A stretch of DNA of 64,000 nucleotides from Pseudomonas sp. PDM16 (GTDB lineage Bacteria > Pseudomonadota > Gammaproteobacteria > Pseudomonadales > Pseudomonadaceae): the NCBI RefSeq assembly GCF_014851865.1, contig NZ_JACVAM010000003.1:1-64000 (forward strand), in the 5' to 3' direction. Positions 7,564 to 34,284 of the stretch are shown piece after piece (positions within the stretch are counted from its first letter, which is position 1; every line of letters begins with the position of its first letter). The translations under genes were made by a program, and so were the position numbers. The notes beneath the pieces were generated by a model, which was given only the letters and a program-made list of their open reading frames with translations, did no database searches and was not told the DNA's origin.

Positions 7564-9882
7564 CTACAGGTCGTAGCGCACCACCAGCCCGACCGTACGA
7601 GGCGCGCCGACATCGATGATGTCGCCACCCCGGTTGTTGGTGACGAACTCCTTGTCGAACAGGTTCTTCACGTAGCCGGACACGGCAAGCCCCTCGACCA
7701 GCTCGTACTCGGCATTGAGATTGACCAGCACGTGGTCGTCGCTACGACGCGTATGGATCACGTCACCATCGGCATCGAACTCATACGCCGTCGGGCTGCC
7801 CTCCTGGTAGACCACATCACTGGTGACGGCCAGGCCATTGTCGAAGCGATAGCGGCCGCCTACCGAGACCTTGTACTTGGGCGCGTAGACGAAGGACTCG
7901 CCGCTGAGGTCGCCATCACGGGTTTCGAAGTCGCCATAGCGCCCGTCCGTGTAGGCTGCGCCAGCATTCACGGTGAATCGGCGGGTCAGATCGTGCTCGA
8001 CAAACACCTCCAGGCCGCGAATGGTGCTGCTGGCGGCGTTGTACACCTGGAAGTAGTCACCGGTGTTGTCGAGCAGGCTGACCTGCTGATCCTTCCAGTC
8101 GGTGTAGTAGAGATTGGCCCGAGCACGCAGGCTGTCATCCAGCCAGGCGCCACGATAGGAAAGCTCGTAGTTGGTGGTGTACTCCGGATCGTAGTCGGCG
8201 TGGCCGCCGCCTGCCCGAACGTTGACGCCGCCTCCGCGGTAGCCCTTCTGCACCATGAACCCCAGGTACTGCCCATCGGCGAAGTTGTAGTCCACGCCCA
8301 GCTTGGGCAGCAGGGCGTCGAAGGTCTTCTCCACCCGCCCTGGGCCGGACAGGAAGTCCTCCTCGACATCGGTGTCGTTCGTCTCGTGGTCGTAACGCAG
8401 CCCGGTGATCAGGGTCCAGTCGGGGGCGAAGCTCCAGTTCAGCTCCCCGAACAGCGCCTTGTTGTGGATCCGGGTATAGCCCTGGATCGTCCCGATCAGA
8501 GAGCCGTCGAACGCCAGTTCGTCGTGATAGGCGTTACTGGTGCGACCGTAATACACCCCGGCGAACCCCCGCAGGCTGTCCCCCTCGTATGCCAGACGCA
8601 CTTCCTGGCTGAACATGTGGGTTTCCTGGCTGCGGCGAGCCTCTTCGTTGGCCTCGGCAGACTGATCGAAATCCAGCAGAGCCGAGTAGTCGGACTGGGT
8701 AGCAGTGGTCAGGCTGGTAAGCGTCCAGGCATCGCCCAGGCGGTAATCGACCTTGGCGCTGCCGGTGTTCTGCTTGAGCGCATCGAAGGCCCTGGTGTCG
8801 GAAGCCACCTTGTAATAGCGCACCTTGTCGCCCTGGCGCAGGATCGAGTTGTCGCCCTGATGGCTCTCGTGGAACGCATAGGTGAGGAGCACGTCGAGAT
8901 CGTCACTGGGCAGGATCAGCAGCTTGCCACGGGCATTCTTGTTGCGATGAGGATTGGCATCACCGCCGGTGGTGATGTTGTCGATGTAGCCGTCGCCATC
9001 CTCATACTCCACCGCCACCCGCCCGGCCATGACACCGTCCACGAGGGAGCCGCCACCCGCCACTGCAGCGCCGCTTTCCCCATAGTTGCCGACGCGGGTC
9101 TGCGCCGACAGGCTCGGCTCGAAGGTCGGATTGCGCGTCTGAATCACCACCGCGCCTGCCAGGGAGTTGCGCCCCTGGGTGGTGGACTGCGGGCCAAGCA
9201 GTACCTCCACCTGCTCGACATCCCACATCGACATCGGGCTAAGCGTCAGCGCACGGTTGGGCTGCTGCGCACCGTCGACATATACCGACACCGCTCCGTT
9301 GAGGGTCGCCGGTCCCTGGTCGTCGAAACCCGAGACCGGAACACCCCGGATACCCCAGTTCTCGTTGCCGGCCACGGCATATACACCCGGGGTGCGGGCA
9401 AACACATGCTCGATGGTATTGTCGCCGTGCTCCCGCAGGTCTTCGGCGGTATTCACCACCACGCTGGTCTGGGTTTGCATCAGGGTGCGATTGATCTTTT
9501 CCCCGGTGACCATCAGCGGCGCTATTTCGATCGGAAGCGCGGGATCGCCAGTCGTCACGGGAACCACGGCGGCGTTTTCAGGCACCACGATATAGGTGTG
9601 CTCATCCTGTTGCTGCACCGTGAGGCCACTACGGTCGAGCAACTGCTTCAGGGCCGCCACCGTGGTGTAGCGACCGTGCAGCGCTGGCGTACGCTTGCCG
9701 GCGGCGATATCGCTGGAGAACAGGATCTGCACGTTTGACTGGGCGGCCAGTGCGCCCAGGGACTGCTCGAGTGGCGCCGCCGGTAGATCGAAGTCGACTT
9801 CGCTGGCCGCCTGAGCCGTCAACGACAGAGCGAGCAGCAGACTGCTGGCCAGAAGGGTGTGGCGCCACTTAGGAATTCTCAC
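7564..9882 (-). CDS. FecA-like TonB-dependent receptor with signalling (STN) domain
   Basis: The 772-residue receptor has a signal peptide, then an STN signalling domain (about residues 30-100: VDFDLPAAPLEQSLGALAAQ, LKQLLDRSGL), then a TonB plug and a 22-strand barrel. The barrel ends in VGLVVRYDL with the expected aromatic-rich last strand. STN receptors pass the substrate-bound signal to a FecR protein in the periplasm, and fecR and fecI lie directly upstream. A GTG at 9882 with a GGAG site 8 bases before it is preferred to a TTG at 9933. The cargo is probably a ferric siderophore or haem-like ligand; the sequence does not say which. Confidence 0.92.
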   Translation of the reverse strand: MRIPKWRHTLLASSLLLALSLTAQAASEVDFDLPAAPLEQSLGALAAQSNVQILFSSDIAAGKRTPALHGRYTTVAALKQLLDRSGLTVQQQDEHTYIVVPENAAVVPVTTGDPALPIEIAPLMVTGEKINRTLMQTQTSVVVNTAEDLREHGDNTIEHVFARTPGVYAVAGNENWGIRGVPVSGFDDQGPATLNGAVSVYVDGAQQPNRALTLSPMSMWDVEQVEVLLGPQSTTQGRNSLAGAVVIQTRNPTFEPSLSAQTRVGNYGESGAAVAGGGSLVDGVMAGRVAVEYEDGDGYIDNITTGGDANPHRNKNARGKLLILPSDDLDVLLTYAFHESHQGDNSILRQGDKVRYYKVASDTRAFDALKQNTGSAKVDYRLGDAWTLTSLTTATQSDYSALLDFDQSAEANEEARRSQETHMFSQEVRLAYEGDSLRGFAGVYYGRTSNAYHDELAFDGSLIGTIQGYTRIHNKALFGELNWSFAPDWTLITGLRYDHETNDTDVEEDFLSGPGRVEKTFDALLPKLGVDYNFADGQYLGFMVQKGYRGGGVNVRAGGGHADYDPEYTTNYELSYRGAWLDDSLRARANLYYTDWKDQQVSLLDNTGDYFQVYNAASSTIRGLEVFVEHDLTRRFTVNAGAAYTDGRYGDFETRDGDLSGESFVYAPKYKVSVGGRYRFDNGLAVTSDVVYQEGSPTAYEFDADGDVIHTRRSDDHVLVNLNAEYELVEGLAVSGYVKNLFDKEFVTNNRGGDIIDVGAPRTVGLVVRYDL

Positions 9883-20990: not shown

Positions 20991-22373
20991 TCAGTCACGA
21001 TCATCTTGCGGGCGCATTGCGACGAACAACGTCCGATAGTCCGCTCGGGACTCCAGGCGGGACACGAAGTCCAGCACTGCATCCTGAGCGAGTCGCCCCA
21101 GATGTGGGGATGCCATCCGGCGAAACTTGCGCTCGAAATCCACATCCTCCATCGGCGTCTCCAGTGAGCCGGGGCCACTGATTCTTTCGCAGGTGACCAT
21201 CTCGCCCGTGGCCAGCTTCACCGTCACCCGATTGGCCAGGTGCCGTGGAAACAGTCTCGTCAGCGACGGGTCTTCGCTGACAGTGGTGCGGCTCATCAGG
21301 GCGATGGCGCGCGGGTCGGCGATCTGCTCCGGCGCGTAGGAATCCAGGGTGATGTCGCCATCCATCAGCGCCCGCGCGACGTTGTAGGGCAGGCTGTGAT
21401 CGGCGGTTTCGCGCGTGCGCGGCCGCCACTTCTCCGGGTCGGCGAGCACCCGGCGGTTGAACTCCGAGGTTTCGATGTGGATGGTCTCGATTGCGTCGAG
21501 GTCGGCGACCCGCGCGCGCAGGTCGATGCCAGCCCATACCGCCGTGTGCAGTTCGCCATTGGTGGGGAAGGTTTTGGTCAGCGAGCGCAGGATGGCGAAG
21601 TCGCCGTTGGCCCGATTGCCGAAGCGCTCGACATCCAGACCGAACTCACCCGTCACCTGGCGGAAGAAGCCCATGTCGCCCTCGAACACCGGCGCCGGCC
21701 CGGTCATCCCGTGGCGCGCCAGGTTGGCGGCGAAGATGGCATTGCGCGCCGCGTTCGCCGCCGCGCAGCCCTTCCAGTCGGACAGCGAGCCCGAACGTAC
21801 CTGACGCATCGTAAGGTGCGCGCAGAGGGCGATGTTGATCGCCTGCTCGGCCTGCTCCTCGTCCAGCCGCATCAGTCGCGCAGCCGCGGCAGCCATCGCC
21901 ACGTTGATGTAGTTGACGTGGTCCCAGCCGCGCTTGTTCAGGCTGGCGGCATCCTGCAGGCGCATCTGGATTTCGTAGGCGATGACGATGGCCACGATCA
22001 GCTCGCTGCCCGTGGCAGCTTCGGCCTCGGCCAGGGCCAGGCAGGCGGGAATGCTGTCGCTGGGGTGGCCGGGCTCGAGGCCCATGTAGCCGTCGTTATA
22101 GTCGAGGAAGCGGACCATGATGCCGTTGGTGAAGGCAGCCAGTTCCGGCGTGGTACGCAGGTCGGTGCCGAATACGCTGGACGCCGGCTGGTGCACCTGC
22201 GTGGCCACAGCGATGGCCGCCTCCACCGGTTTCGCGCCATAGGCGCCGAGGATGCAGGCCAGGCTGTCGACGAAGCGCCGGCGTACGCAGGCGGTTACCG
22301 TTTCGGGCAGATCATCGATGGATAGATTGCAGGCATAGCTGGCCAGGCGCCGCGCCAATGTGGGTTCGGACAT
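20991..22373 (-). CDS. MmgE/PrpD-family dehydratase
   Basis: The 460-residue product is full length for the MmgE/PrpD family, whose known members dehydrate 2-methylcitrate or isomerise cis-aconitate. Family landmarks include FVDSLACILGAYGAKPVEAA, FTNGIMVRFLDYNDGY and GHPSDSIPACLALAEA. It is the last gene of the minus-strand operon, 22 bases after the LeuD-like gene. Next to an aconitase-type hydro-lyase it most likely handles a citrate-like tricarboxylate: one enzyme removes water and the other adds it back. Its exact substrate is not known. Confidence 0.92.
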   Translation of the reverse strand: MSEPTLARRLASYACNLSIDDLPETVTACVRRRFVDSLACILGAYGAKPVEAAIAVATQVHQPASSVFGTDLRTTPELAAFTNGIMVRFLDYNDGYMGLEPGHPSDSIPACLALAEAEAATGSELIVAIVIAYEIQMRLQDAASLNKRGWDHVNYINVAMAAAAARLMRLDEEQAEQAINIALCAHLTMRQVRSGSLSDWKGCAAANAARNAIFAANLARHGMTGPAPVFEGDMGFFRQVTGEFGLDVERFGNRANGDFAILRSLTKTFPTNGELHTAVWAGIDLRARVADLDAIETIHIETSEFNRRVLADPEKWRPRTRETADHSLPYNVARALMDGDITLDSYAPEQIADPRAIALMSRTTVSEDPSLTRLFPRHLANRVTVKLATGEMVTCERISGPGSLETPMEDVDFERKFRRMASPHLGRLAQDAVLDFVSRLESRADYRTLFVAMRPQDDRD

Positions 22374-22395
22374 GAAGATTCTCCAGTATGCCGGC

Positions 22396-23004
22396 TCAGG
22401 CCAGCCAGGGATTGGCGCGCAGGTGCGACGCCTCGAATGCGCGGATCTGCTCGGTGCGCCGCAGGGTGCTGCCGATGGCGTCCAGCCCCAGCAGCAGGGC
22501 CTGCTTGCGCAGCGGGTCGATGTCGAAATGGATGATCGCGCCGTCGCCGAGCAGCACCTGCTGCGCCTGCAGATCGACGCTGATCGCCGCGTTGGCCGGG
22601 TCGCTGACGATGCGCCCGAGGTGCTGCAACTCCGCCTCTCGCAGCTGGATCAGCAACACGCCGTTGCGCTGGCAGTTGTCGAAGAAGATGCCGGCGAAGC
22701 TGGTGCCGATCAGCGCGCGAAAGCCCAGCTGCTTCAGGCCCCACACCGCGTGCTCGCGGCTGGAGCCGCAGCCGAAGTTTGGCCCGACCACCAGGAAGCT
22801 GGCACGATTCCACGGTGTTTGGTTGAGCACGAAGTCGAGGTTGGCGCTGCCGTTCTCGAGGAAGCGCAGATTGAAGAACAGGCCACGATCCAGACCATTG
22901 CGATCGATGCCCTTGAGGAACTGCTTGGGCATGATCACGTCGGTGTCGACGTTGGCCGCGAGCATCGGCGCGGCAATGCCGCTGACATGGGTGAATGGCT
23001 GCAT
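22396..23004 (-). CDS. LeuD-like small subunit of a 3-isopropylmalate dehydratase-family hydro-lyase
   Basis: The 202-residue product carries the swivelling domain of the aconitase superfamily: NVDTDVIMPKQFLK and GPNFGCGSSREHAVWGL, the substrate-binding SSREHA motif. The start at 23004 lies 1 base after the stop of the LeuC-like gene, so the subunits are coupled. No leuA or leuB is present, and the neighbours are catabolic, so I infer a dedicated paralogue and not the leucine biosynthetic enzyme. Confidence 0.9.
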   Translation of the reverse strand: MQPFTHVSGIAAPMLAANVDTDVIMPKQFLKGIDRNGLDRGLFFNLRFLENGSANLDFVLNQTPWNRASFLVVGPNFGCGSSREHAVWGLKQLGFRALIGTSFAGIFFDNCQRNGVLLIQLREAELQHLGRIVSDPANAAISVDLQAQQVLLGDGAIIHFDIDPLRKQALLLGLDAIGSTLRRTEQIRAFEASHLRANPWLA

Positions 23005-23005
23005 C

Positions 23006-24427
23006 TCAGCTCTCCAGGGGCAGGCTGCGGACATCGGTGAGATGGCCGCTGATGGCGGCGGCCACAACCATCGCCGGACTCATCAGGTGGGTCCGCGCAC
23101 CAGCGCCCTGGCGGCCCTCGAAATTGCGGTTGGTGCTGGACGCGCAGCGGTCGCCCGGCGCCAGCACGTCATCGTTCATCGCCAGGCACATCGAGCAGCC
23201 GGACTGGCGCCACTCGAAGCCGGCCTGGCGGAAGATCTGCGCCAGCCCTTCGGCTTCGGCCTGTTCGCGCACCAGGGTCGAGCCGGGCACGATCATCGCC
23301 CGCACATGGCTGGCCACGCTGCGCCCGCGCACGACTCGTGCGGCGTCGCGCAGGTCCTCGATGCGCGCATTGGTACAGGAGCCGATGAAGGCGTGGCTGA
23401 TGCGGATCGCCGCCAGCCGTTCGCCGGGCTGCAGACCCATGTAGCGCAGGGCGCGCTGCAGGTCCTGGCGGCGGATCGGGTCGCCCTCCTCCTGCGGATC
23501 CGGCACGCACGCGCCGATGGGTGCCGCCTGGTCCGGGCTGGTGCCCCAGGTGACCATCGGCTGCAGCGCGGCGGCGTCCAGTTCTACCTCCGCGTCGTAG
23601 TGCGCGCCGGGGTCGCTGCGCAGCTCGCGCCAGCTGGCCATGGCTTGCTCCCAGAGCAGGCCATGCGGCACGCGCGGCTTGTCCTTGAGGTAGGCGAAGA
23701 CCTTGTCGTCGGGGGCCATGAAGGCGCCGCGGGCGCCGGCCTCCACCGCCATGTTGCAGATGGTCATGCGCGCCTCGACGCTCAGCGCCTCGATGGTCTC
23801 GCCGCAGAACTCGATGGCGTAGCCGGTGGCGCCGGCCGCGCCGATGCGCTGGATCAACGCCATGATGATGTCCTTGGACGTCACCCCGGCGCCCAGCTCG
23901 CCACGCACCGTCACGCGCATGCTGCGCAGCTTCTTGTAGACCAGGGTCTGGGTGGCCAGCAGATGCTCGATTTCCGAGGTGCCGATGCCGAAGCCGAAGG
24001 CGCCCAGCGCGCCGTAGGTGGTGGTGTGGCTGTCGCCGGCGGCAACCATCATGCCGGGCAGGATGAAGCCCTGCTCCGGCGCCACCACGTGCTCGATGCC
24101 CTGGCGCTTGTCCAGCACATCGAACAGCTCCAGGCCGAAATCGCGGCAGTTCTGCTCGAAGTAGGAGACCTGCCGCGCGCCACCGGCATCCGGCATGGTG
24201 GCGATGCGCTCAGGCGTAGTGGGGTTCACATGATCGACCACGCACAGCGTGGCGGCCGGGCGCCACACGGTGCGTCCGGCTTCGCGCAGGCCGCTGAAGG
24301 CCTGCGGGCTGGTGTATTCGTTGGCGACCTGGCGGTCGATGTACAGCAGCACATGGCCGTGGTCGTCGAGGGTGCAGACGGTGTGGGCATCGATGTGCTT
24401 GTCGTAGAGCGTTCGGGGGCGGTTCAT
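23006..24427 (-). CDS. LeuC-like large subunit of a 3-isopropylmalate dehydratase-family hydro-lyase
   Basis: The 473-residue product is an aconitase-superfamily large subunit. The 4Fe-4S ligands are visible as one Cys in FIGSCTNARIEDL and two in SGCSMCLAMNDD; VAAGDSHTTTYGALGAFGFG and CASSTNRNFEGRQG are also intact. It should interconvert a hydroxy tri- or dicarboxylate by loss and re-addition of water. Start at 24427 (MNRPRTLYDKHIDAHTV); upstream codons do not match the family. It follows DUF4387 and AtuA genes. Confidence 0.92.
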   Translation of the reverse strand: MNRPRTLYDKHIDAHTVCTLDDHGHVLLYIDRQVANEYTSPQAFSGLREAGRTVWRPAATLCVVDHVNPTTPERIATMPDAGGARQVSYFEQNCRDFGLELFDVLDKRQGIEHVVAPEQGFILPGMMVAAGDSHTTTYGALGAFGFGIGTSEIEHLLATQTLVYKKLRSMRVTVRGELGAGVTSKDIIMALIQRIGAAGATGYAIEFCGETIEALSVEARMTICNMAVEAGARGAFMAPDDKVFAYLKDKPRVPHGLLWEQAMASWRELRSDPGAHYDAEVELDAAALQPMVTWGTSPDQAAPIGACVPDPQEEGDPIRRQDLQRALRYMGLQPGERLAAIRISHAFIGSCTNARIEDLRDAARVVRGRSVASHVRAMIVPGSTLVREQAEAEGLAQIFRQAGFEWRQSGCSMCLAMNDDVLAPGDRCASSTNRNFEGRQGAGARTHLMSPAMVVAAAISGHLTDVRSLPLES

Positions 24428-24516
24428 CACGGCTCTCGCACGGGTCGTTGGGAATCGCGGGCGTCTACCCGCTGTCGCCATGGCCGCGGGTGGCGGCCTT
24501 GGCGACACGAGGACGA

Positions 24517-24828
24517 TCAGGCCGCCGTGCGGGCAAGTTCCTCGGCCAGCACATAGCCCCACTGCGCGCCGTGCATGTCGCGGTCGGCCAGCGAGCCCTG
24601 TACCACCGGGCGCGGCAGGCTGATCTTGATGACGTTGAGCGGGGCCAGGTGGAAGGTGCGAACCTGGCTAGCGTCGCTGTGGAAAATCGCCGCCATCGAC
24701 TCGGCGCCCAGCAGCGGCTCGGCGCAGAGGCGGCTGTAGGTTTCGCCGTCGGCGCAGAAGATGTCGAAGGTCAGCCAGAATGGGCCGGCGCTTTTCGAGC
24801 GGATTTCGTATCCCTGAGACTGGATCAT
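24517..24828 (-). CDS. DUF4387-family protein
   Basis: The 103-residue product (MIQSQGYEIRSKSAGPFWLT..., SLPRPVVQGSLADRDMHGAQ) matches my recollection of DUF4387, a small family of unknown function that accompanies AtuA/DUF1446 proteins. It starts 2 bases after the AtuA-like stop codon, so the pair is translationally coupled and probably forms a complex. No catalytic motif is recognised. Confidence 0.8.
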   Translation of the reverse strand: MIQSQGYEIRSKSAGPFWLTFDIFCADGETYSRLCAEPLLGAESMAAIFHSDASQVRTFHLAPLNVIKISLPRPVVQGSLADRDMHGAQWGYVLAEELARTAA

Positions 24829-24830
24829 GG

Positions 24831-26198
24831 TCAGGCTCCTGTAACGGTGAAGTCGAAACGGTACGGCGCCAGCGGGTTGCCGATTACCATCACGTGGTTG
24901 AGGACGAATTCGTAGACCAGACCGCGATCCATCGAGGCCGGCGACAGCGGGAAGGCGTGGGTCGGCAGGTCTTTGTCGTCGGGTAGCGGGAAATGCAGCA
25001 TGTACGGGTTGAGCAGGGCCAGGATGTCCTGGGTGTGCGATGCGTCCGGGCAGGTGGCGATGGCCAGCACGCCGATTTCCGTCGGGGCGCTGGCTTGCGG
25101 CTCCAGATCACCGAGGGCGGAGTTCTTGCCGATGGCGCGGAACTGCAGGTCGTACTGCGCCGGGCCGATGCCAAGATTCTTCTCGATGCGCTTGCGCATG
25201 GCGCCGTCCAGCATCTGCAGCCACTCGTCGAAGCGGGCGATGTACTCCGGCCCCCGCACCACACTGAGCAGCACCGACTGATGGCCAGCCGGGGCCGCAC
25301 CTTCGAGCTTGACGGTGTAGCGTTCGTGCGGCTCCCACACGGAACCCTCGACACGCACGCGGCGCTCGTCCAGCGCGTGGTAGCGCGCTGCTTCGACGTT
25401 GAGCGCACCACCCGGCTCGGTCAGCAGGTTGGGGTTGCTGTTCTCGTAGAGCATGTGCGCCATCACCGATTGCGGGGTCAGGCGCGCCTGCGGGCCGATG
25501 GCGGTGATGGTGAAACCGGAGGCGTCGATTTCGGCCATGACCATCGCATCGAGCGGTGTGGTGGTGCACTGCGCGCCGCACTCCATGGTCTTGCCTGCGT
25601 GCCAGGATGGCCCGGCCGGTGCGCCGCGCATGATCGGCAGGCAGGCCAGCACGGCAGTATCGGTGGCACGCCCGGCGACGATGATGTCCGCACCCTGCTC
25701 CAGCGCATGGATGAACGGCTCTACCCCCATCACCGCGACGATGTGCGAGCAGCGCTCGACCAGCGTCTCGTCGATCGGGCGCACGGGGTTGAGCGGCAGC
25801 ACGCGGCCATCGGCCAGCGCCTGCACCACCGTGGCGTGTTGCTGCTCACCATAGATGGCGGCGACCTTGACGTTCTGCCCCAGCTCGGCGGCCACCTCCA
25901 GGCAGACGCTGCGCAGCAGATCGACGCCCGAGTCGGAGCCGCAGGTGCCGCTGCTGCCGACGATCAGTGGAATGCCCAACTCGGCGCGGGCCTTCATGTA
26001 GACACGCAGCTCGTCCCGCAGCACGGCTGCTGAGCCCTTGGTGCTGCCGGTGCCGAGGTAGTGCGGGCCGGAGTCGGTCGAACCGCCGTCCATCGCGATC
26101 ACGTCCGGCTTTTCCAGCAGGGCCCGCTCGAAGAGGTCCAGTCGTACCCCGGAGCCGATGCAGCCGGTGGGGACGAGCACTTTTATACTTTTTTCCAT
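24831..26198 (-). CDS. AtuA-like (DUF1446) acyclic terpene utilisation family protein
   Basis: The 455-residue product is full length for the DUF1446 family, with the N-terminal VLVPTGCIGSGVRLDLFERAL and AMDGGSTDSGPHYLGTGS and the middle GVEPFIHALEQGADIIVAGRATD. AtuA is needed for growth on citronellol and geraniol in Pseudomonas, but its reaction is not established. Here there is no geranyl-CoA carboxylase; the partners are hydro-lyases and a citrate-type carrier, so another substrate is likely. Start at 26198 has AGGA with 6-base spacing and overlaps the preceding gene end. Confidence 0.9.
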   Translation of the reverse strand: MEKSIKVLVPTGCIGSGVRLDLFERALLEKPDVIAMDGGSTDSGPHYLGTGSTKGSAAVLRDELRVYMKARAELGIPLIVGSSGTCGSDSGVDLLRSVCLEVAAELGQNVKVAAIYGEQQHATVVQALADGRVLPLNPVRPIDETLVERCSHIVAVMGVEPFIHALEQGADIIVAGRATDTAVLACLPIMRGAPAGPSWHAGKTMECGAQCTTTPLDAMVMAEIDASGFTITAIGPQARLTPQSVMAHMLYENSNPNLLTEPGGALNVEAARYHALDERRVRVEGSVWEPHERYTVKLEGAAPAGHQSVLLSVVRGPEYIARFDEWLQMLDGAMRKRIEKNLGIGPAQYDLQFRAIGKNSALGDLEPQASAPTEIGVLAIATCPDASHTQDILALLNPYMLHFPLPDDKDLPTHAFPLSPASMDRGLVYEFVLNHVMVIGNPLAPYRFDFTVTGA

Positions 26199-26200
26199 GG

Positions 26201-27220
26201 TCATTCCTCGGTTGGAAGTGCGCCGCGTCCGTCGGCGATAACGCAGGACGCTGGCGGCGTGTCGCCATTCAGCACTGCGACTACGCACTGCGCGGCGATC
26301 AGGTTGGTGCGCTGCAACCCTTCATGGGTCGAGGCACCGCTGTGCGGAGTGGCCACCACGTTCGGCAAGGCGAGCAGCGCCTCGGTGGTGGCGCGGTAGG
26401 TTGGATCGGTCTCGCTGAGAAACACGTCCAGGCCGGCGCCGGCGATGGCGCCATCGAGCAGTGCCTCGAGCAGCGCGCGGTCATCGACCAGGCCGCCACG
26501 GGCGGTATTGATCAGCACGGCGCTGGGCTTCATGCGGTTGAGTGCTGGGGCGTCGATGAGCAGGCGCGTGTCCTCGTTCAACGGCGCGTGCAGGCTCACG
26601 TAGTCGCTCTCGGCCAGCAGGGTGTCGAGGTCGACGTACTGCACGCCGGCCTCGCGGCCGTAGCTCCAGTCCGGGTTCGGCGAATAGGCTAGTACCTTCG
26701 CCTCGAAGCCGGCCAGGCGCTTGACCACGCCACGGCCGATGCGCCCCAGGCCGACGATGCCCACCGTCTTGCGATACAGGTCGCGGCCGAGGGCAATGCC
26801 CCAGTCGCCCTGGAGCATGCGCGCCTTGGCTTCACCCAGACGTCCCAGGGCCAGCATCATGGCGATGGCGTGGTCGGCGACGCTGGCATCGTTGCCGCCG
26901 ACCGCGATGGTCGCGACCTTGCCGCTGGCCTGTACGGCATCGACGCTCACCCGCTCATAGCCGACGCCACGCCGGGCAATCACCTGCAGGCGCGGCAACT
27001 GCTCCAGCAGCTGCGCCGTGACCCAGGCGTGGCCGACGATCCAGGCATCGGCATCGGCCAGCAGCGCCAGCAGTTGCGCCTCGTCGAGGTCACCATCGCC
27101 CTGCCCCTGGGCCAGCTCTGCGATGCTCACCTCGCAGCCCTGGCCCTGCAGGTAGGCGATGCTCTCGGGGTCGAAGAAGCGCTGGGTCACCAGCACCTTG
27201 CGTGGGAGTTGTGTGTTCAT
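26201..27220 (-). CDS. D-isomer-specific 2-hydroxyacid dehydrogenase
   Basis: The 339-residue product has the two-domain fold of NAD(P)-dependent D-2-hydroxyacid dehydrogenases. GIVGLGRIGRGVV binds the cofactor; the catalytic Arg is in NTARGGLVDD, the acid in LSETDP and the His in TPHSGAST. It would oxidise a 2-hydroxy acid to the 2-oxo acid, or the reverse. An upstream start at 27328 is possible but would add 36 non-family residues; AGGAGG lies before the chosen ATG. It is second in the operon after the carrier. Confidence 0.9.
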   Translation of the reverse strand: MNTQLPRKVLVTQRFFDPESIAYLQGQGCEVSIAELAQGQGDGDLDEAQLLALLADADAWIVGHAWVTAQLLEQLPRLQVIARRGVGYERVSVDAVQASGKVATIAVGGNDASVADHAIAMMLALGRLGEAKARMLQGDWGIALGRDLYRKTVGIVGLGRIGRGVVKRLAGFEAKVLAYSPNPDWSYGREAGVQYVDLDTLLAESDYVSLHAPLNEDTRLLIDAPALNRMKPSAVLINTARGGLVDDRALLEALLDGAIAGAGLDVFLSETDPTYRATTEALLALPNVVATPHSGASTHEGLQRTNLIAAQCVVAVLNGDTPPASCVIADGRGALPTEE

Positions 27221-27346
27221 GCCGTCTCTCTCACCTCCTGCTGCGCGGCCCAGTTGCACCGAGCGCCACTGTTCTTGCGGCAAGCCGCTGCCCTTCCCCC
27301 TGATCGTGATGATCGGAGGCGTGGTCATTCCTGGAGTCGGGGCTCG

Positions 27347-28630
27347 CTAGATGATCGCGCCGGTCGCCAGCGCCGACAGGATCAGCACCACCGAGCAGCC
27401 CAGCGCCCAGGCCAGGCCATAGCGCTGCAGCTCACCCATGTCGCGCTTGAGTAACCCGGCCAGCAGGTAGGGCGCGGCGATCAGCGGGCTCAGCGCATGC
27501 ACCGGCTGGCCCAGCACCGAGGCGCGGGCGATGTGCAGCGGGTCCACGCCGTATTGCCCGGCGGCGCCATTGAGGATCGGCAGGATGCCGTAGAAGAAGG
27601 CGTCGTTGGACATGAAGAAAGTGAAGGGAATCGCCGCCAGCGAGGTGATCACGCTCATGTACGGCCCGGAGTTCTCCGGCACCACGTCGAGGAAGGCCTG
27701 GGACATAGCGTCGACCATACCCGAGCCGGTGAGAATGCCGGTGAAGGCGCCGGCGGCGAAGATCAGCGCCACCACGTTGAGTACGTTCTCCGAGTGCGCG
27801 GCGATGCGCTCCTTCTGCTCCGCCAGGCGCGGGTAGTTGATCACCAGGGCCAGGGCCAGCGCGATCATCATCAGCACCGGCAGCGGACCGAGCCCCATGC
27901 CCATGCTCGCCACCAGGCCCAGGGTCAGCGCCAGGTTGACCCAGAACAGGTGCGGGCGGTGGCTGTCCCTGGCCTTGCGCTCCAGTTCGGGCGCCGCCGT
28001 GTCGGCCTGCCCCGGCACCCAGCCGAGGCGCCGGCGCTCGCGCTGGCCCAGCCACCAGGCTGCGGCAAAGGCGTAGACCAGGCCGATCAGCATGGCCGGA
28101 ATCAGGCCGACGAACACATCCATGGCATCCACGTGCAGCGCACTGGCGGCCCGTGCGGTTGGTCCACCCCAGGGCACGATGTTGATCACTGTATTGGTCA
28201 GCAGCAGCATCACTGCCAGGATCAGCGGGTTCATGCCCAGGCGCAGGTAAACCGGCAGGAAGGCGGTGACCACCACCAACACGGTGGTCGCGCCATCGCC
28301 ATCCAGCGAGATGACGGTAGACAGCGCGGCGGTGCCGAGGGTGATGCGCAGCGGATCATTGCCGACCCAGCGGATGATGCGCCTCACCGCCGGCTCGAAC
28401 AGGCCGGCGTCGAACATCACCGCGAAGTACAGCAGCGCGAACATCAGCATCATCGCCGTCGGCGTGACCTTGATGACACCGTCCAGCACCATTTCGCCCA
28501 TCTGCGAACCAAGGCCCAGCGCCAGCGCGAACGCCACCGGCACCAGGATCAGCGCGACGATGGCCGACAAGCGCCGCGTCATGATCAGCAACATGAACAC
28601 CGAGACCATCGCGAATCCAACCCAAGCCAT
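27347..28630 (-). CDS. CitMHS-family citrate/tricarboxylate symporter
   Basis: The 427-residue membrane protein has about twelve helices and CitMHS features (GEMVLDGVIKVTPTAMMLMFALLYF, NIVPWGGPTARAASALHVD, SNDAFFYGILPIL). The family brings in citrate with a divalent metal and protons. It opens the minus-strand operon, so it sets the likely substrate class: a citrate-like tricarboxylate or its metal complex. A GTACAGATTTAC-type site lies about 110 bases upstream. No ribosome site stands out. Confidence 0.92.
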   Translation of the reverse strand: MAWVGFAMVSVFMLLIMTRRLSAIVALILVPVAFALALGLGSQMGEMVLDGVIKVTPTAMMLMFALLYFAVMFDAGLFEPAVRRIIRWVGNDPLRITLGTAALSTVISLDGDGATTVLVVVTAFLPVYLRLGMNPLILAVMLLLTNTVINIVPWGGPTARAASALHVDAMDVFVGLIPAMLIGLVYAFAAAWWLGQRERRRLGWVPGQADTAAPELERKARDSHRPHLFWVNLALTLGLVASMGMGLGPLPVLMMIALALALVINYPRLAEQKERIAAHSENVLNVVALIFAAGAFTGILTGSGMVDAMSQAFLDVVPENSGPYMSVITSLAAIPFTFFMSNDAFFYGILPILNGAAGQYGVDPLHIARASVLGQPVHALSPLIAAPYLLAGLLKRDMGELQRYGLAWALGCSVVLILSALATGAII

Positions 28631-28738
28631 TCTGTTGTCCTTGTTGTTAAAAGAATCAGGTAGGAGTGCAGCCTTCAGCCGGTCGAGATACCGCCACAGG
28701 TGCACGATGGACGCAAAGTACACATTGATTTTTTAAAC

Positions 28739-28750
28739 GTAAATCTGTAT
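28739..28750 (-). promoter_or_regulatory. Shared regulatory element, copy 1 (before the CitMHS operon)
   Basis: The minus strand reads TACAGATTTAC (28749 down to 28739), an 11-base match to the two other copies at 29642 and 30973. It lies 109-119 bases before the carrier start, with TGTAC a further 8 bases upstream in an AT-rich region. The same orientation relative to transcription is seen at MipA and DUF1302. Confidence 0.65.
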
Positions 28751-28767
28751 TTTTTTTGTACATCAAT

Positions 28768-29541
28768 TCAATCGAACAACCAGGAAATGCCGACCTTCAC
28801 CCCGAGCTGACCGGCATCGCCCTCCGCCAGCGGGCTGTCGGTAAGACGACCCGGCAGGTGCCGGTAGCTGGCCTCACCGATTAGCAGCCAGCGTTCGCCA
28901 GCCGGCCTGGACACTCCCAGCGCCAGCTCCTGCACCACCGCGCTGCCCGGACGATAGCGTGCCACGCCGCGCGCCTCCTCATCGCTCAGGGTGCCGTAGT
29001 AATAGTCGGCCAGCTTGTCCGACAGATAGCTGACCTTCAGTGCCGGCGTCACCTTCGCCCCGGCCACGTCCATCGGATAGCCATACTCCAGGGCCAGCTC
29101 GTAACCCTCGCTGGCGCCACTGACATCGGCCGTGGCCTGCAGCTCGCCGAAGGCAAACTCCCAGCTGGCGCGCAGGCCAAGGTCGATGCCGTCGTCACGA
29201 TCCTCCAGGAGATCGCGATCGATACCGTTCTCGGCCAGCTCGGCGCGGCCGAAGTCGTCGGCATCGATGCCATCGAAGCGCCCTGAGACGATTGCATCCA
29301 GGCCGAAACCATCGCGCTCGATCAGGTGCACACCGCCGGTCAGCCCCTGCAGGAACAGGCGCTCGCCCTGGTAACGCACCAGCGGCACCGGCGACACGGA
29401 GCTATCCGCCCCCGCATAGGGGCTCTGCGAGTAGGACAGCCCCAGGCCGATGGACTGCAGCCCCGGGGCGGAATCCGCCTGGGCGACATGGGGCAACAGA
29501 GCGGCAGGCAACACGGACACGGCAAGACACAGCGATTTCAT
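28768..29541 (-). CDS. MipA/OmpV-family outer-membrane protein
   Basis: The 257-residue product has a signal peptide (MKSLCLAVSVLPAALLPHVAQA) and a small beta barrel ending GVKVGISWLFD. Motifs such as GLSYSQSPYAGADSSVSPVPLVRYQGERLFL are typical of MipA/OmpV proteins, which act as scaffolds or simple porins. It lies between the carrier operon and the HTH-citrate synthase gene and carries a copy of the shared element about 100 bases upstream, so I infer an uptake role in the same pathway. Confidence 0.88.
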   Translation of the reverse strand: MKSLCLAVSVLPAALLPHVAQADSAPGLQSIGLGLSYSQSPYAGADSSVSPVPLVRYQGERLFLQGLTGGVHLIERDGFGLDAIVSGRFDGIDADDFGRAELAENGIDRDLLEDRDDGIDLGLRASWEFAFGELQATADVSGASEGYELALEYGYPMDVAGAKVTPALKVSYLSDKLADYYYGTLSDEEARGVARYRPGSAVVQELALGVSRPAGERWLLIGEASYRHLPGRLTDSPLAEGDAGQLGVKVGISWLFD

Positions 29542-29609: not shown

Positions 29610-29625
29610 TTTACAGGAATGTAAA
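29610..29625. promoter_or_regulatory. Dyad in the MipA/citrate-synthase-like intergenic region
   Basis: TTTACAGGAATGTAAA is a dyad with 5-bp arms (TTTAC and GTAAA) and a 6-base centre, lying between the two divergent starts. It shares the TTTACA half with the 12-bp element 17 bases away and may be a second contact site for the same regulator. Confidence 0.45.
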
Positions 29626-29641
29626 CAGTCGACTAACATCG

Positions 29642-29653
29642 GTAAATCTGTAC
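29642..29653. promoter_or_regulatory. Shared regulatory element, copy 2 (MipA / HTH-citrate synthase)
   Basis: GTAAATCTGTAC, identical in reverse complement to the copy at 30973, lies 101-112 bases before the MipA start and only 13 bases before the ATG of the HTH-citrate synthase gene. Binding there would be expected to block the latter, which fits negative autoregulation. Confidence 0.65.
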
Positions 29654-29666
29654 TCAAAACGTCCAC

Positions 29667-30869
29667 ATGAAGGCCGCCATGCCCAACCAAGATGAGCTGT
29701 ACCTCTCCGCCGAGGAAGCCGCCGGGCTGCTCGGCGTCAACCTGCCGACCCTGTATGCCTACGTGGGGCGCAAGAACATCCGCTCGGTGAAGATCGAGGG
29801 CTCGCGCAAGCGCCGCTACTGGGCGGCCGACATCCAGCGCCTGGTCAAGGGCAGCAAGGGCGGCGACGCCACGACGAGCAAGCGCGGCAATCCGGACTCG
29901 CACAGCTCGCTGACCCTGCTCACCGAGGACGGCCTGTACTACCGCGGCCGAGACATCCACGAGCTGGTGGAGAAGGCCTCGGTGGAGGAAGTGGCGGAGA
30001 TGTTCTGGCAGGTGCCAGGAGCCTTCGGCGATTCGCTGCCGCACATGCCGCCCGGCGTGCCGCAACTGCTGGAGCTGTTCGGCCACACCACGGTGATCGA
30101 GAAGGCCATCGCCCTGTTCCCGCTAGTGGAGCGGGAGAACCCCAAGGCCTTCGACCTCTCGCCCGAGGGCTATGCGCGTACCGGTGCCGACGTGGTGCGC
30201 TGGTTCGCCGCGCTGGTGGTCGGCGCCACCGCGCCGGACCCGCGCCCGCTGCACGAATTCATCGCAGCCTCCTGCGGCATGGACCAGCGCTTCGCCGACC
30301 TGATCCGGCGCATGCTGATCCTGAGCATCGACCATGAGCTGGACCACTCCACCTACAGCGTGCGCGCCGCAGCGAACACCGGCGTCACGCCCTACTACGC
30401 TGCCATCACTGGCCTGGCCACGGCCCGTGGCCGGCGCATCGCCTACGGCCGCAACGAGACGGTCAGCCACCTGCTGGACGACATCTGCAACGCCAAGGAC
30501 CCGGCCGAACCGATCCTCCAGCACTACAGCCAGGGCGGCGACATCCCCGGCTTCTGCGCCAACGTGCACAGCGTCGCCGACCCGCGCGCCCTCAGCCTCA
30601 AGGCCACGCTGGACAGCATGTTCGCCGACGACCCGGAGTACCTGCGCCTGCTCAAGGCCATGAAGGTGGCCGAGGAACTGGTGCAGCGGCCGGTGGAGTT
30701 CATCCTGCTGGTCAGCTTCGTCGGCCGCAAACTCAACCTGGGCGGCCAGGAACTGGCGCTCGCCGCCGTCGCCCGCCTGATCGGCTGGATCGCCCACGCC
30801 AGCGAGCAGTACAACCAGCAGCCGCTGGTTCGCCACCGCGCCCGCTACACCGGCGCCCTGCCCGGCTGA
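29667..30869 (+). CDS. HTH-citrate synthase fusion, probably a pseudoenzyme regulator
   Basis: This 400-residue protein joins a MerR/excisionase-like helix-turn-helix (about residues 11-60: YLSAEEAAGLLGVNLPTLYA) to a citrate synthase fold (about 75-400). The first catalytic His is kept (H223 in SIDHELDHSTY) and the Asp of VADPRA (D305) is present. The loop normally reading LHGGAN, which holds the second catalytic His, is RIAYGRN here (257-263), so citrate synthase activity looks unlikely. The C-terminal RHRARYTG resembles the CoA/carboxylate-binding end of the family. I infer a DNA-binding protein that senses a citrate-like ligand. The start may be at 29679, which has AAGG close by. Confidence 0.85.
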   Translation: MKAAMPNQDELYLSAEEAAGLLGVNLPTLYAYVGRKNIRSVKIEGSRKRRYWAADIQRLVKGSKGGDATTSKRGNPDSHSSLTLLTEDGLYYRGRDIHELVEKASVEEVAEMFWQVPGAFGDSLPHMPPGVPQLLELFGHTTVIEKAIALFPLVERENPKAFDLSPEGYARTGADVVRWFAALVVGATAPDPRPLHEFIAASCGMDQRFADLIRRMLILSIDHELDHSTYSVRAAANTGVTPYYAAITGLATARGRRIAYGRNETVSHLLDDICNAKDPAEPILQHYSQGGDIPGFCANVHSVADPRALSLKATLDSMFADDPEYLRLLKAMKVAEELVQRPVEFILLVSFVGRKLNLGGQELALAAVARLIGWIAHASEQYNQQPLVRHRARYTGALPG

Positions 30870-31132
30870 CCCCGCGCTGGCGCGCCGCAAGGGCCGCCAG
30901 CCACCATCCTCCCTCTTCCCCCGCCGAGCCGTGCCCTTTCGGGCATGGCCGCATCACGCATGCACAAAAATCGTACAGATTTACATGTCAACCACACATG
31001 TATAGCGTCTTATTGAGCTCAATTCATACATATGTACATAAATAATACATATGCCCTTGAGCCCAGAGCCTAGGGATGCCGGGAACAGCGCTCGCTGCCG
31101 CCCTCATCGAAAACAAGAAAAGGTGAAGAGAC
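30870..31132. other. Control region before the DUF1302 gene
   Basis: The interval holds a stem GCCGTGCCC/GGGCATGGC (30928-30949) that may end the citrate-synthase-like transcript, then an AT-rich control region with the shared element at 30973. It also has two ACATGT repeats (30983 and 30996) and the palindrome TACATATGTA at 31027-31036 with a second TACATATG at 31046. Confidence 0.6.
30973..30984 (+). promoter_or_regulatory. Shared regulatory element, copy 3 (before DUF1302)
   Basis: GTACAGATTTAC lies 149-160 bases upstream of the DUF1302 start. Like copy 1 it is preceded by a TGNAC half (TGCAC) 7 bases upstream. The three copies are the only ones I noticed in the window. Confidence 0.65.
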
Positions 31133-32911
31133 GTGAAACGAACCATCAAGCGGCCCGGCATACCCGGCGCAGCCGTTCTGGCAATGGCGACGGCGGGCTA
31201 CATGGCCGGCGCTCAAGCAGTGAACTTCAACATCGGCGAAGTGGAAGGTCAGCTCGACTCGGCGCTTTCCATCGGTGCCAGCTGGGCGGTGCGCGCGCCG
31301 GACCCGGACTTCATCGCCCAGGGCAACGGCGGCAAGGGTGACTCGCGCACCTCCGACGACTCACGGCTGAACTTCAAGAAGGGCGAGACCTTCTCGAAGA
31401 TCTTCAAGGGCATCCACGACCTCGAGCTGAAGTACCGCAACTCCGGCGTGTTCCTGCGCGGCAAGTACTGGTATGACTTCGAGCTGAAGGACGAAAGCCG
31501 CCTGCTCTACGACATCCGCGACGACAACCGCAAACGCGGCGCCCAGTCGTCCGGCGTGGAGCTGCTCGATGCCTTCGCCTACCACAACTACGACCTCGCC
31601 GAACTGCCCGGTTCGGTGCGCGTCGGCAAGCAGGTGGTGAGCTGGGGCGGCAGTACCTTCATCAGCGGCGGCATCAACAGCATCAACCCGCTGGACGCCA
31701 ACGCCCTGCGTCGCCCGGGCTCGGAGCTGAAGGAGGGCCTACTGCCGGTCAACATGATCTACCTGCAGCAGGCGCTGGCCGAAGACGTCAGCCTGGAAAC
31801 CTTCTACCAGCTGGAGTGGGACCAGACCGTCGCCGACAACTGCGGCACCTTCTTTGCCAGCTCGGACATCGTCGCCGACGGCTGCGACGACCGCTACGTG
31901 GTGCGCGGCGCGGACATCGAACCCGGTCAGTCCGACAACAGTGGCCTCAATGGCAATACCATCTATCTGCCTCGCGGTGGCGATCGCGATGCACGCGACA
32001 GCGGCCAGTTCGGCGTCGCCCTGCGCTGGTTCGTTCCCGAGCTGAACGATACGGAAATCAGCGCCTACTACCTGAACTACCACAGCCGCACCCCGGTGGG
32101 CAGTTCGGTGATCAGCAGCGCCCCCAACCCGTTCACCGCGCCGGGCTTCGGTGCGGCATACGCCCAGTACTTCCTCGAATACCCGGAAGACATTCGCCTG
32201 TACGGCCTGAGCTTCAACACCACCATCGGCACCGCGTCGGTGGAAGGCGAGCTGAGCTACAGGCCGAACATGCCGCTGGCCATCGACGACCTGACCTACG
32301 CCACCCTGCGCCTGGCCCCGGTAGTGCCGAGCGTGATCCCGAACTCGGGCATCCCCGGCGACGAGATCCACGGCTACACCCGTGTGCCCATGACCCAGGG
32401 GCAGATGAGCGTGGTGCAGACCTTCGACCAGGTGCTCGGCGCCAGTCGCCTGAACCTGATCGGCGAGGTCGGCTTCACCCACCTCAACGGCATCAACGAG
32501 GGTGACTACGGTGAGTACCGCTTCGGCCGGGCGAGCCACTTCGGCCCAGGCGAATACTTCGACAACGACGGCAACGACCTGTGCAGCACGCTGCTCAGCG
32601 GCCGCCCGGAGTACTGCAACGACGACGGCTTCTTCACCCGCAACTCCTGGGGTTATCGCCTGCGCGCCGGCCTCACCTACAACGGCGTGATCGGCGGCCT
32701 GGACCTCAGCCCGAGCCTGGCTTGGTCGCATGACGTGGACGGCTACGGCCCGACCTTCACCGAGGGCAGCAAGGCCGTGAGCATCGGTCTCAGCGCCAAA
32801 TACCTGTCCAATTACGAAGCCAGCATCAGTTACACCGACTACTTCGGCGGCGACTACACCACCAACGGTGACCGCGACTTCATCAGCGCCAGCATCGGCG
32901 TGACGTTCTGA
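31133..32911 (+). CDS. DUF1302-family outer-membrane protein
   Basis: The 592-residue product has an N-terminal export signal (cleavage near AQA-VN) and a beta-rich body ending ISASIGVTF, the terminal strand of an outer-membrane protein. FNIGEVEGQLDSALSIGASWAVR is the typical DUF1302 start. It begins at a GTG preceded by AAAAGGTGAAG. The family forms operons with DUF1329 proteins in pseudomonads and is linked to handling of lipidic or hydrophobic substrates at the cell surface; its exact role is not settled. DUF1329 follows 11 bases later. Confidence 0.9.
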   Translation: MKRTIKRPGIPGAAVLAMATAGYMAGAQAVNFNIGEVEGQLDSALSIGASWAVRAPDPDFIAQGNGGKGDSRTSDDSRLNFKKGETFSKIFKGIHDLELKYRNSGVFLRGKYWYDFELKDESRLLYDIRDDNRKRGAQSSGVELLDAFAYHNYDLAELPGSVRVGKQVVSWGGSTFISGGINSINPLDANALRRPGSELKEGLLPVNMIYLQQALAEDVSLETFYQLEWDQTVADNCGTFFASSDIVADGCDDRYVVRGADIEPGQSDNSGLNGNTIYLPRGGDRDARDSGQFGVALRWFVPELNDTEISAYYLNYHSRTPVGSSVISSAPNPFTAPGFGAAYAQYFLEYPEDIRLYGLSFNTTIGTASVEGELSYRPNMPLAIDDLTYATLRLAPVVPSVIPNSGIPGDEIHGYTRVPMTQGQMSVVQTFDQVLGASRLNLIGEVGFTHLNGINEGDYGEYRFGRASHFGPGEYFDNDGNDLCSTLLSGRPEYCNDDGFFTRNSWGYRLRAGLTYNGVIGGLDLSPSLAWSHDVDGYGPTFTEGSKAVSIGLSAKYLSNYEASISYTDYFGGDYTTNGDRDFISASIGVTF

Positions 32912-32922
32912 GGATGCACCAC

Positions 32923-34284
32923 ATGAACCGACCCACCCTCTTCTCGCGCTGCGCGCTGTCGCTGTGCCTGCCGCTACTGCTCAACACCGCCCATGCCGCC
33001 GTGGACGCGGCGCAGGCCGCCAAGCTGGGCGCCGATCTCACTCCGGTTGGCGCCGAGCGCGCCGGCAACGCCGCCGGCAGCATTCCCGAATGGACCGGCG
33101 GCCTGCCCAAGGATGCCGGCAAGGTCACCAATGGCTTCCGCGCCGACCCCTTCGCCAGCGAAGCGCCGCTGTTCACCATCACCGCGCAGAACCTCGATCA
33201 GTACCGGGAGCACCTGAGTCCGGGGCAGCAGGCGCTGTTCGCCCGCTACGCCAGCACCTACAAGATTCCCGTGTACCCCACCCATCGCAGTGTCGCCTGG
33301 CCGCAGAAGGCCTACGAAGTGGCGCACCGCAACGCCACCACCACGCAGACGGTGGAAGGCGGCAACGGCCTGGAGAAATACGCCAGCCCACTGGCCTTCC
33401 CCATTCCACAGAACGGCCTGGAAGTGCTGTGGAACCACATCACCCGCTACCGCGGCGGCAGCTTCACCCGCGAGACCACGGCCTTCATGACCACTCCGGG
33501 CGGCGACTACTCGTGGAAGACCGAGCGCGACCGCCTGGCCTACAGCGAGGAACTGCTGGACTACGACCCAAGCAAGTCGAAGAACATCCTCTACTACTTC
33601 ACCTCCGAGAACATCGCACCGGCGCGCGACGTGGGCGGCGTGCTGCTGGTCCACGAGACCCTCAACCAGGTGAAGGAACCGCGCATGGCCTGGCAGTACA
33701 ACTCCGGTCAGCGCAGGGTACGCCGTGCACCACAGGTCGCCTATGACAGCCCCGGTCCGGGCAACCTGCGTACCACCGACCAGACCGACATGTTCAATGG
33801 CTCGCCGGATCGATATGACTGGCAACTGGTCGGCAAGCGCGAGATGTACGTGCCCTACAACAGCTTCCGCCTGGCTGACCCGGCCAACAGCTACGACGAA
33901 CTGATCACCCCGGGCCACCTCAACCAGGACAAGACCCGCTACGAGCTGCACCGGGTCTGGGAAATCATCGGCACGCTGAAGGAAGGCCAGCGCCATGTCT
34001 ATTCCAAGCGCCACCTGTTCATCGACGAAGACAGCTGGACCATCGTCGAGGCCGACCACTACGACGCCCGTGGCAACCTGTGGCGCGTCTCGGAGAACCA
34101 CATCCTGCCGCTGTACGACGAGCAGACGCAGATCTCCGCGGGCGAGCTGACCTACGACCTGATCTCCGGCCGCTACCTGGCGAACTACATGTTCAACAAG
34201 GTGAACAACGCCTACCAGTTCGGCCTCAAGGCCAAGACCGGCGACTTCACCCCCGCCGCCCTGCGCGCCATCGGCATTCGCTGA
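32923..34284 (+). CDS. DUF1329-family exported protein
   Basis: The 453-residue product has a signal peptide (MNRPTLFSRCALSLCLPLLL..., cleavage near AHA) and the DUF1329 fold, related to LolA/LolB-like lipid carriers (EIIGTLKEGQRHVYSKRHLFIDEDSWTI is diagnostic). It is co-transcribed with DUF1302. The ATG at 32923 has AGGA 8 bases upstream; the frame also has an ATG at 32914 directly after the previous stop. It probably works in the periplasm with the DUF1302 barrel. Confidence 0.9.
   Translation: MNRPTLFSRCALSLCLPLLLNTAHAAVDAAQAAKLGADLTPVGAERAGNAAGSIPEWTGGLPKDAGKVTNGFRADPFASEAPLFTITAQNLDQYREHLSPGQQALFARYASTYKIPVYPTHRSVAWPQKAYEVAHRNATTTQTVEGGNGLEKYASPLAFPIPQNGLEVLWNHITRYRGGSFTRETTAFMTTPGGDYSWKTERDRLAYSEELLDYDPSKSKNILYYFTSENIAPARDVGGVLLVHETLNQVKEPRMAWQYNSGQRRVRRAPQVAYDSPGPGNLRTTDQTDMFNGSPDRYDWQLVGKREMYVPYNSFRLADPANSYDELITPGHLNQDKTRYELHRVWEIIGTLKEGQRHVYSKRHLFIDEDSWTIVEADHYDARGNLWRVSENHILPLYDEQTQISAGELTYDLISGRYLANYMFNKVNNAYQFGLKAKTGDFTPAALRAIGIR

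Follow-up and report, generated by a model that had tools for sequence, protein, structure and literature searches.

In the window (the whole stretch of 64,000 nucleotides from Pseudomonas sp. PDM16 that was analysed here), we found what appears to be a gene switch built from citrate synthase (CS), which has lost the working histidines of the enzyme, kept the pocket that holds the acid, and gained a DNA-binding head. The protein is probably a one-component transcription regulator derived from CS, and its dead CS domain would sense a citrate-like acid. The gene, its domains, the neighboring genes and the operator-like sites are collected in Table 1.

Table 1. Features of the HTH-CS locus (positions in the window)
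Feature	Position	Strand	Basis or remark
LeuD-like hydratase small subunit (Aconitase_C)	22396..23025	-	family scan
LeuC-like aconitase-family hydratase large subunit	23006..24415	-	family models
MmgE/PrpD-family protein	20991..22373	-	family scan
DUF4387 protein	24517..24828	-	family scan
AtuA-family protein	24831..26204	-	family scan
D-2-hydroxyacid dehydrogenase	26201..27226	-	family models
CitMHS citrate-type proton symporter	27347..28633	-	family models
Operator-like site 1, upstream of citMHS	28719..28763	+	core 28739-28749
MipA/OmpV outer membrane protein	28768..29541	-	Pfam-type family scan
Operator-like site 2, between HTH-CS and mipA	29622..29666	+	core GTAAATCTGTA at 29642-29652
HTH-citrate synthase (CS) fusion	29679..30869	+	conserved start; 396 aa
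HTH_17 (excisionase-type helix-turn-helix) domain	29700..29846	+	Pfam; residues 12-60 of 400-aa ORF
Citrate synthase domain, best Pfam stretch	30231..30836	+	residues 189-390 of 400-aa ORF
I258, column of first catalytic His (LHGGAN loop)	30438..30440	+	alignments
A298, column of second catalytic His (GFGH)	30558..30560	+	alignments; window reads GFCA
Operator-like site 3, upstream of DUF1302 gene	30960..31004	-	core 30974-30984
DUF1302 protein	31133..32911	+	family scan
DUF1329 protein	32914..34284	+	family scan

Gene, domains and predicted fold

The ORF at 29667-30869 on the plus strand encodes 400 residues, and the start found in the relatives matches an inner ATG at 29679, which gives an HTH-CS protein of 396 residues. 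The dN/dS ratios of seven pairs were 0.04-0.28 and the gene occurs across genera, so a chance or non-coding ORF was rejected. Purifying selection acts on the HTH-CS ORF, which is a genuine Pseudomonas gene.

A helix-turn-helix (HTH) fused to a CS fold had been claimed for this ORF in the preliminary description, and the Pfam scan confirmed both parts. The window protein scored 116.5 bits with Citrate_synt (PF00285), and 26.3-26.4 bits with HTH_17 against a cut-off of 27, a shortfall of 0.6-0.7 that we count against the reading we prefer. In alignment A2, which contained the window protein and the loci of 25 relatives (26 members), each of the 26 matched both HTH_17 and Citrate_synt (E <= 0.001), so that a DNA-binding HTH domain is joined to a domain of the ligand-binding type in every member. 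MerR_1 was matched at the same threshold by four of the 26, the window protein not being among these. Membership of the excisionase family (TIGR01764) was rejected, since the score was 25.6 bits and the curated cut-off is 28.8. None of the NCBIfam CS models gave the window protein a score above its cut-off.

An AlphaFold2 model generated from A2 had a mean pLDDT of 78.2 and a pTM of 0.73. In the numbering from the inner start, the weak stretches were 59-77 (linker), 251-256 (catalytic loop) and 383-396, and the pLDDT of the loop 251-256 was below 50, which counts against our preferred reading. The structural matches listed were overwhelmingly citrate synthases. The top match listed, a solved CS, was aligned over 311 residues with a Z of 28.0 and an rmsd of 3.5, and this superposition, which had been proposed earlier as a check, bore out the modelled fold. 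The CS fold began near residue 75 (400-aa ORF numbering) and is full in the model, with the HTH joined to a complete CS domain.

Catalytic and substrate-binding residues

In the alignment used to compare the residues, 29 rows came from the clade of the window protein, 27 were HTH-CS fusions from other Pseudomonadota and 17 were citrate synthases. The 29 rows were the window protein, the 25 relatives and three further family members; 11 other family matches were left out of this set. The first catalytic His, in the LHGGAN loop, is H264 of E. coli CS, and the second, in GFGH, is H305. The loop reads RIAYGRN in the window protein, as had been reported; it had been described as the site of the second catalytic His, but it is the place of the first. 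None of the 29 clade rows had the first catalytic His, compared to 27 of 27 other HTH-CS fusions and 17 of 17 citrate synthases. The second was found in 6 of 29 clade rows, compared to 25 of 27 and 17 of 17, respectively. The six clade rows form the GFNHS subgroup and were counted against our reading. In the window protein the second His is gone as well (A298), a loss beyond the earlier claim of a catalytically dead protein. With both histidines absent from its sequence, the enzyme is very probably dead.

H223 and D305 had been put forward as retained catalytic residues. Both are present, but the alignments rejected a catalytic role: H223 is the substrate His of the DHE motif, and D305 is the DPR Asp rather than the catalytic one. 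The state of the catalytic Asp itself is ambiguous, because its column pairs with E344 in the profile alignment to true CS, whereas E344 is off by one in the profile alignment to the intact HTH-CS proteins. The column also differs by aligner, and in MAFFT it was I, L or V in the clade rows. In P. gingeri (L064), the position of E344 is occupied by Ala. In L049 and L051-L057, a six-residue insert bearing His (e.g., AHTAHH) was observed in the loop that follows the missing second catalytic His.

It is very unlikely that the protein is still an enzyme with a changed chemistry, e.g., a lyase or a synthase in which H301 or another residue acts as the base, whether or not it binds DNA. H301, which follows the lost second His by three residues, does not vary in A2; in the alignment to true CS, E344 may take the place of the Asp; and the intact HTH-CS relatives mostly keep both histidines, as counted above. 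However, the first catalytic His is gone from every clade row, and its loop is longer by one inserted residue and conserves other residues, with G255 and R262 invariant in A2 (400-aa numbering). Moreover, H301 aligns with a Tyr of CS and not with the catalytic His.

All 29 clade rows retain the oxaloacetate-binding His and three Arg, and these substrate-carboxylate residues are H223, R307, R370 and R389 in the window protein. They bear on another reading, in which the protein is a DNA-binding regulator and the CS domain is a dimer scaffold or interaction platform that does not sense an acid, the signal coming from elsewhere or the control being constitutive. The rebuilt catalytic loop with its low confidence in the model would fit such a scaffold, and ligand sensing is only what we infer. 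A pure scaffold would not need the carboxylate-binding residues, so the invariance of all four in the 29 rows despite the lost catalytic His makes this reading unlikely, although we give it some weight.

The window protein thus has the fold, a full CS domain, the oxaloacetate-binding His and the three Arg in common with CS and 2-methylcitrate synthase (PF00285). It differs from them in the absence of both catalytic His, in the added HTH and in scores below the NCBIfam CS cut-offs. We did not place it with the active citrate synthases because both catalytic His, two defining features, are missing.

Gene neighborhood and operator-like motif

The block from mipA to the PrpD gene is divergent from the fusion in the window, and the DUF1302 and DUF1329 genes follow the fusion in that order. 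The genes of the region 20991-28633 (CitMHS, 2-hydroxyacid dehydrogenase, AtuA, DUF4387, LeuCD, and PrpD) probably form a catabolic cluster of the tricarboxylate type. The AtuA family is the same as DUF1446. One paper describes, downstream of methylaspartate ammonia-lyase, a gene of the DUF1446 type whose function is unknown (PMC4682846). The fusion and its nearest recognized upstream gene were divergent at each of 14 other loci. AtuA was found in all 14 of these, CitMHS and DUF4387 in 13 each, PrpD in 12 and the hydroxyacid dehydrogenase in 10, on sides that varied. Extra genes were scanned in 12 of these loci (10 of 13 listed ORFs), which gave OprD porins in four, one MFS transporter, one TauD-type protein, one LysR regulator (L041) and three without a family. 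On the downstream side of the fusion, L043 and L044 each carry a DUF1302/DUF1329 pair in opposite orientation; a second such pair is present in L044.

A motif was then traced through the promoter regions of the cluster. The pattern TGTAAATCTNTA with at most one mismatch had three matches in the 64-kb window against 0.13 expected, and 0 of 100 shuffles reached three. The exact 11-mer GTAAATCTGTA occurred three times in the 5.09-Mb genome, at the places of these three matches and each time in a promoter region of the HTH-CS cluster, compared to about 0.38 expected from base composition and one occurrence of the reversed 11-mer. The fusion and its neighbors therefore share a conserved candidate site in their promoter regions. 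The DUF1302/DUF1329 pair (30960-34284), with an operator-like core upstream, may belong to the same regulon. The wider consensus of 51 sites, one of which (L072:7046) looks off-consensus, was A...TAnACA, 14 bases, GTAAATCTKKA, then GTnCA at +19. The TA steps about 20 bases apart may form a repeat.

The 24-base form of the citMHS site, a pattern derived partly from the very sequences tested, was present in 10 of the 15 fusion-carrying genomes and in 0 of the 283 that lack the fusion (Fisher p 2.3e-15). It occurred as one copy per genome in 10 of the 298 family genomes, and the reversed control gave zero throughout the 298. The form as written was absent from 5 of the 15 fusion genomes, a point against our reading. 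Since the motif and the gene cluster travel together, this cross-tabulation cannot tell which protein of the cluster binds the motif.

A different protein might thus bind the GTAAATCTGTA sites, the HTH-CS protein not being the local regulator. The co-occurrence of motif and cluster holds whatever the binder, and a LysR regulator gene was found in the cluster of one relative (L041:14015-14938), which counts against the reading we prefer. But no other DNA-binding family was detected among the 16 window proteins scanned (19.1-36.8 kb), the fusion has the core GTAAATCT no more than about 255 bases upstream in the window and in 25 of 25 relatives' loci, and HTH_17 is present throughout A2. We therefore consider another binder quite improbable.

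The palindrome TTTACA-4-TGTAAA at 29610-29625 was rejected as a clade-wide operator, being perfect only in the window and some of the 25 relatives. A promoter-like match (one found, 0.5 in shuffles) overlaps this palindrome and ends at 29639, just ahead of the core at 29642, a position that is weakly suggestive of auto-repression.

The role of the HTH-CS protein as a regulator is, on this sequence evidence, well supported. The preliminary description had proposed that a dead CS was reused as a ligand-sensing regulator of the neighboring catabolic genes, and the proposal was strengthened, because both His are lost, the carboxylate residues are kept, the gene arrangement is divergent in 14 of 14 loci, and the motif is limited to the promoters of the cluster.

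Relatives, proposed mechanism and meaning

The distribution of the fusion was examined in three samples. In the family sample, the window-type fusion was present in 15 of 298 genomes; the remaining genomes had CS-level matches at best, and two had none. The carriers identified by name belong to Pseudomonas, Phytopseudomonas, Aquipseudomonas, Stutzerimonas and Alloalcanivorax. In the class-wide sample, only 4 of 369 genomes, the own genome included, matched alignment A1 at E <= 1e-25, so the fusion is rare in that sample. In the phylum sample of 398 Pseudomonadota genomes, which included eight genomes of the same class from outside the family, 44 matched A1 at E <= 1e-20, including three from the genus of the window. 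Proteins were examined from 27 of the 41 matches outside the genus (those given as loci). These HTH-CS proteins of other Pseudomonadota matched the profile of the window group over the full length, HTH included (probability 100, E 5.6e-70). In the tree, the 29 rows formed one clade (support 100/100) that is nested in the HTH-CS family on a long stem, and nine rows of one other genus adjoin it (99/89). The order of the deeper HTH-CS groups is weak in places, and long branches meet.

Twenty neighborhoods of the 41 were read, only for the genes of the window, GltA, PrpC and HTH-CS. The intact HTH-CS genes often stand divergent beside genes of acid metabolism. Unlike the window clade, these proteins mostly keep the catalytic residues, and a CS or prpC gene was nearby in 15 of the 20 loci: a CS-like gene adjoined the fusion divergently in 12, and a gene 85-86% identical to prpC was close by on the opposite strand in three. 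One locus had an aconitase-family match only, and four had neither kind. GTAAATCT was absent in 19 of the 20 loci and had one distant match in L114, so the motif supports only the Pseudomonas-type clade.

Two further observations were made in these neighborhoods. The divergent CS-like gene beside HTH-CS in L103-L105, L107, L108 and L116-L122 is distinct and carries a GPLHGGAP motif; 12 rows show Glu at the column of the catalytic Asp, and the gene of L105 exceeds the NCBIfam PRK12350 cut-off. In L109, L110 and L112, HTH-CS lies near 8000-9260 and the prpC-like gene between 10215 and 12791 on the opposite strand, and these intact-looking HTH-CS proteins may control the methylcitrate cycle.

We lean towards the view that these proteins make up an undescribed family of CS-fold regulators in Pseudomonadota. 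The family would range from catalytic-looking members, often near CS or prpC and possibly trigger enzymes that sense oxaloacetate, citrate or methylcitrate, to a Pseudomonas/Stutzerimonas/Alloalcanivorax branch that lost the catalytic His and was re-tuned to control the uptake and breakdown of a citrate-like acid. In the open-licence PMC literature, no description was found of an HTH-citrate synthase regulator, nor of the intact HTH-CS fusions of other Pseudomonadota. A table line in a Streptomyces paper names a 'citrate synthase-like protein' (PMC7324645).

In the mechanism that we propose for the window protein, the N-terminal HTH would bind an operator of about 45 bp in three promoter regions, those of citMHS, of the divergent region shared by mipA and the fusion itself, and of the DUF1302 gene. 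The CS domain would hold the subunits together as a dimer, like CS. Its pocket keeps the residues that grip the carboxylates of oxaloacetate or citrate in the absence of the catalytic His, and we propose therefore that it reads the level of a citrate-like acid imported and broken down by the cluster. The ligand would alter the CS domain and with it the spacing of the HTH heads, by which the cluster would be switched on. The DNA binding, the dimer, the identity of the ligand and the direction of control are what we infer here.

The reuse of enzyme folds as sensors is a known theme. MocR/GabR regulators combine an HTH with an aminotransferase fold, and their plan, an HTH followed by an enzyme fold that has become a sensor, is the one proposed for HTH-CS, but the fold, the type of HTH, the cofactor and the ligand differ. 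BirA and PutA are active enzymes that also regulate transcription; as is predicted for HTH-CS, a single chain combines the enzyme fold with DNA binding, whereas the HTH-CS protein of the window has lost its catalytic histidines. CS in such a role was not found in the open-licence papers.

The predicted operator has three sites in one genome, and the claim of a regulator is therefore readily testable. If it is true, it would provide a handle on the acid-degradation cluster (CitMHS, AtuA, DUF4387, LeuCD, and PrpD) and possibly a genetically encoded sensor for a citrate-type acid. Furthermore, since a single tree contains catalytic-looking and apparently dead members, the change from enzyme to regulator may be traced residue by residue.
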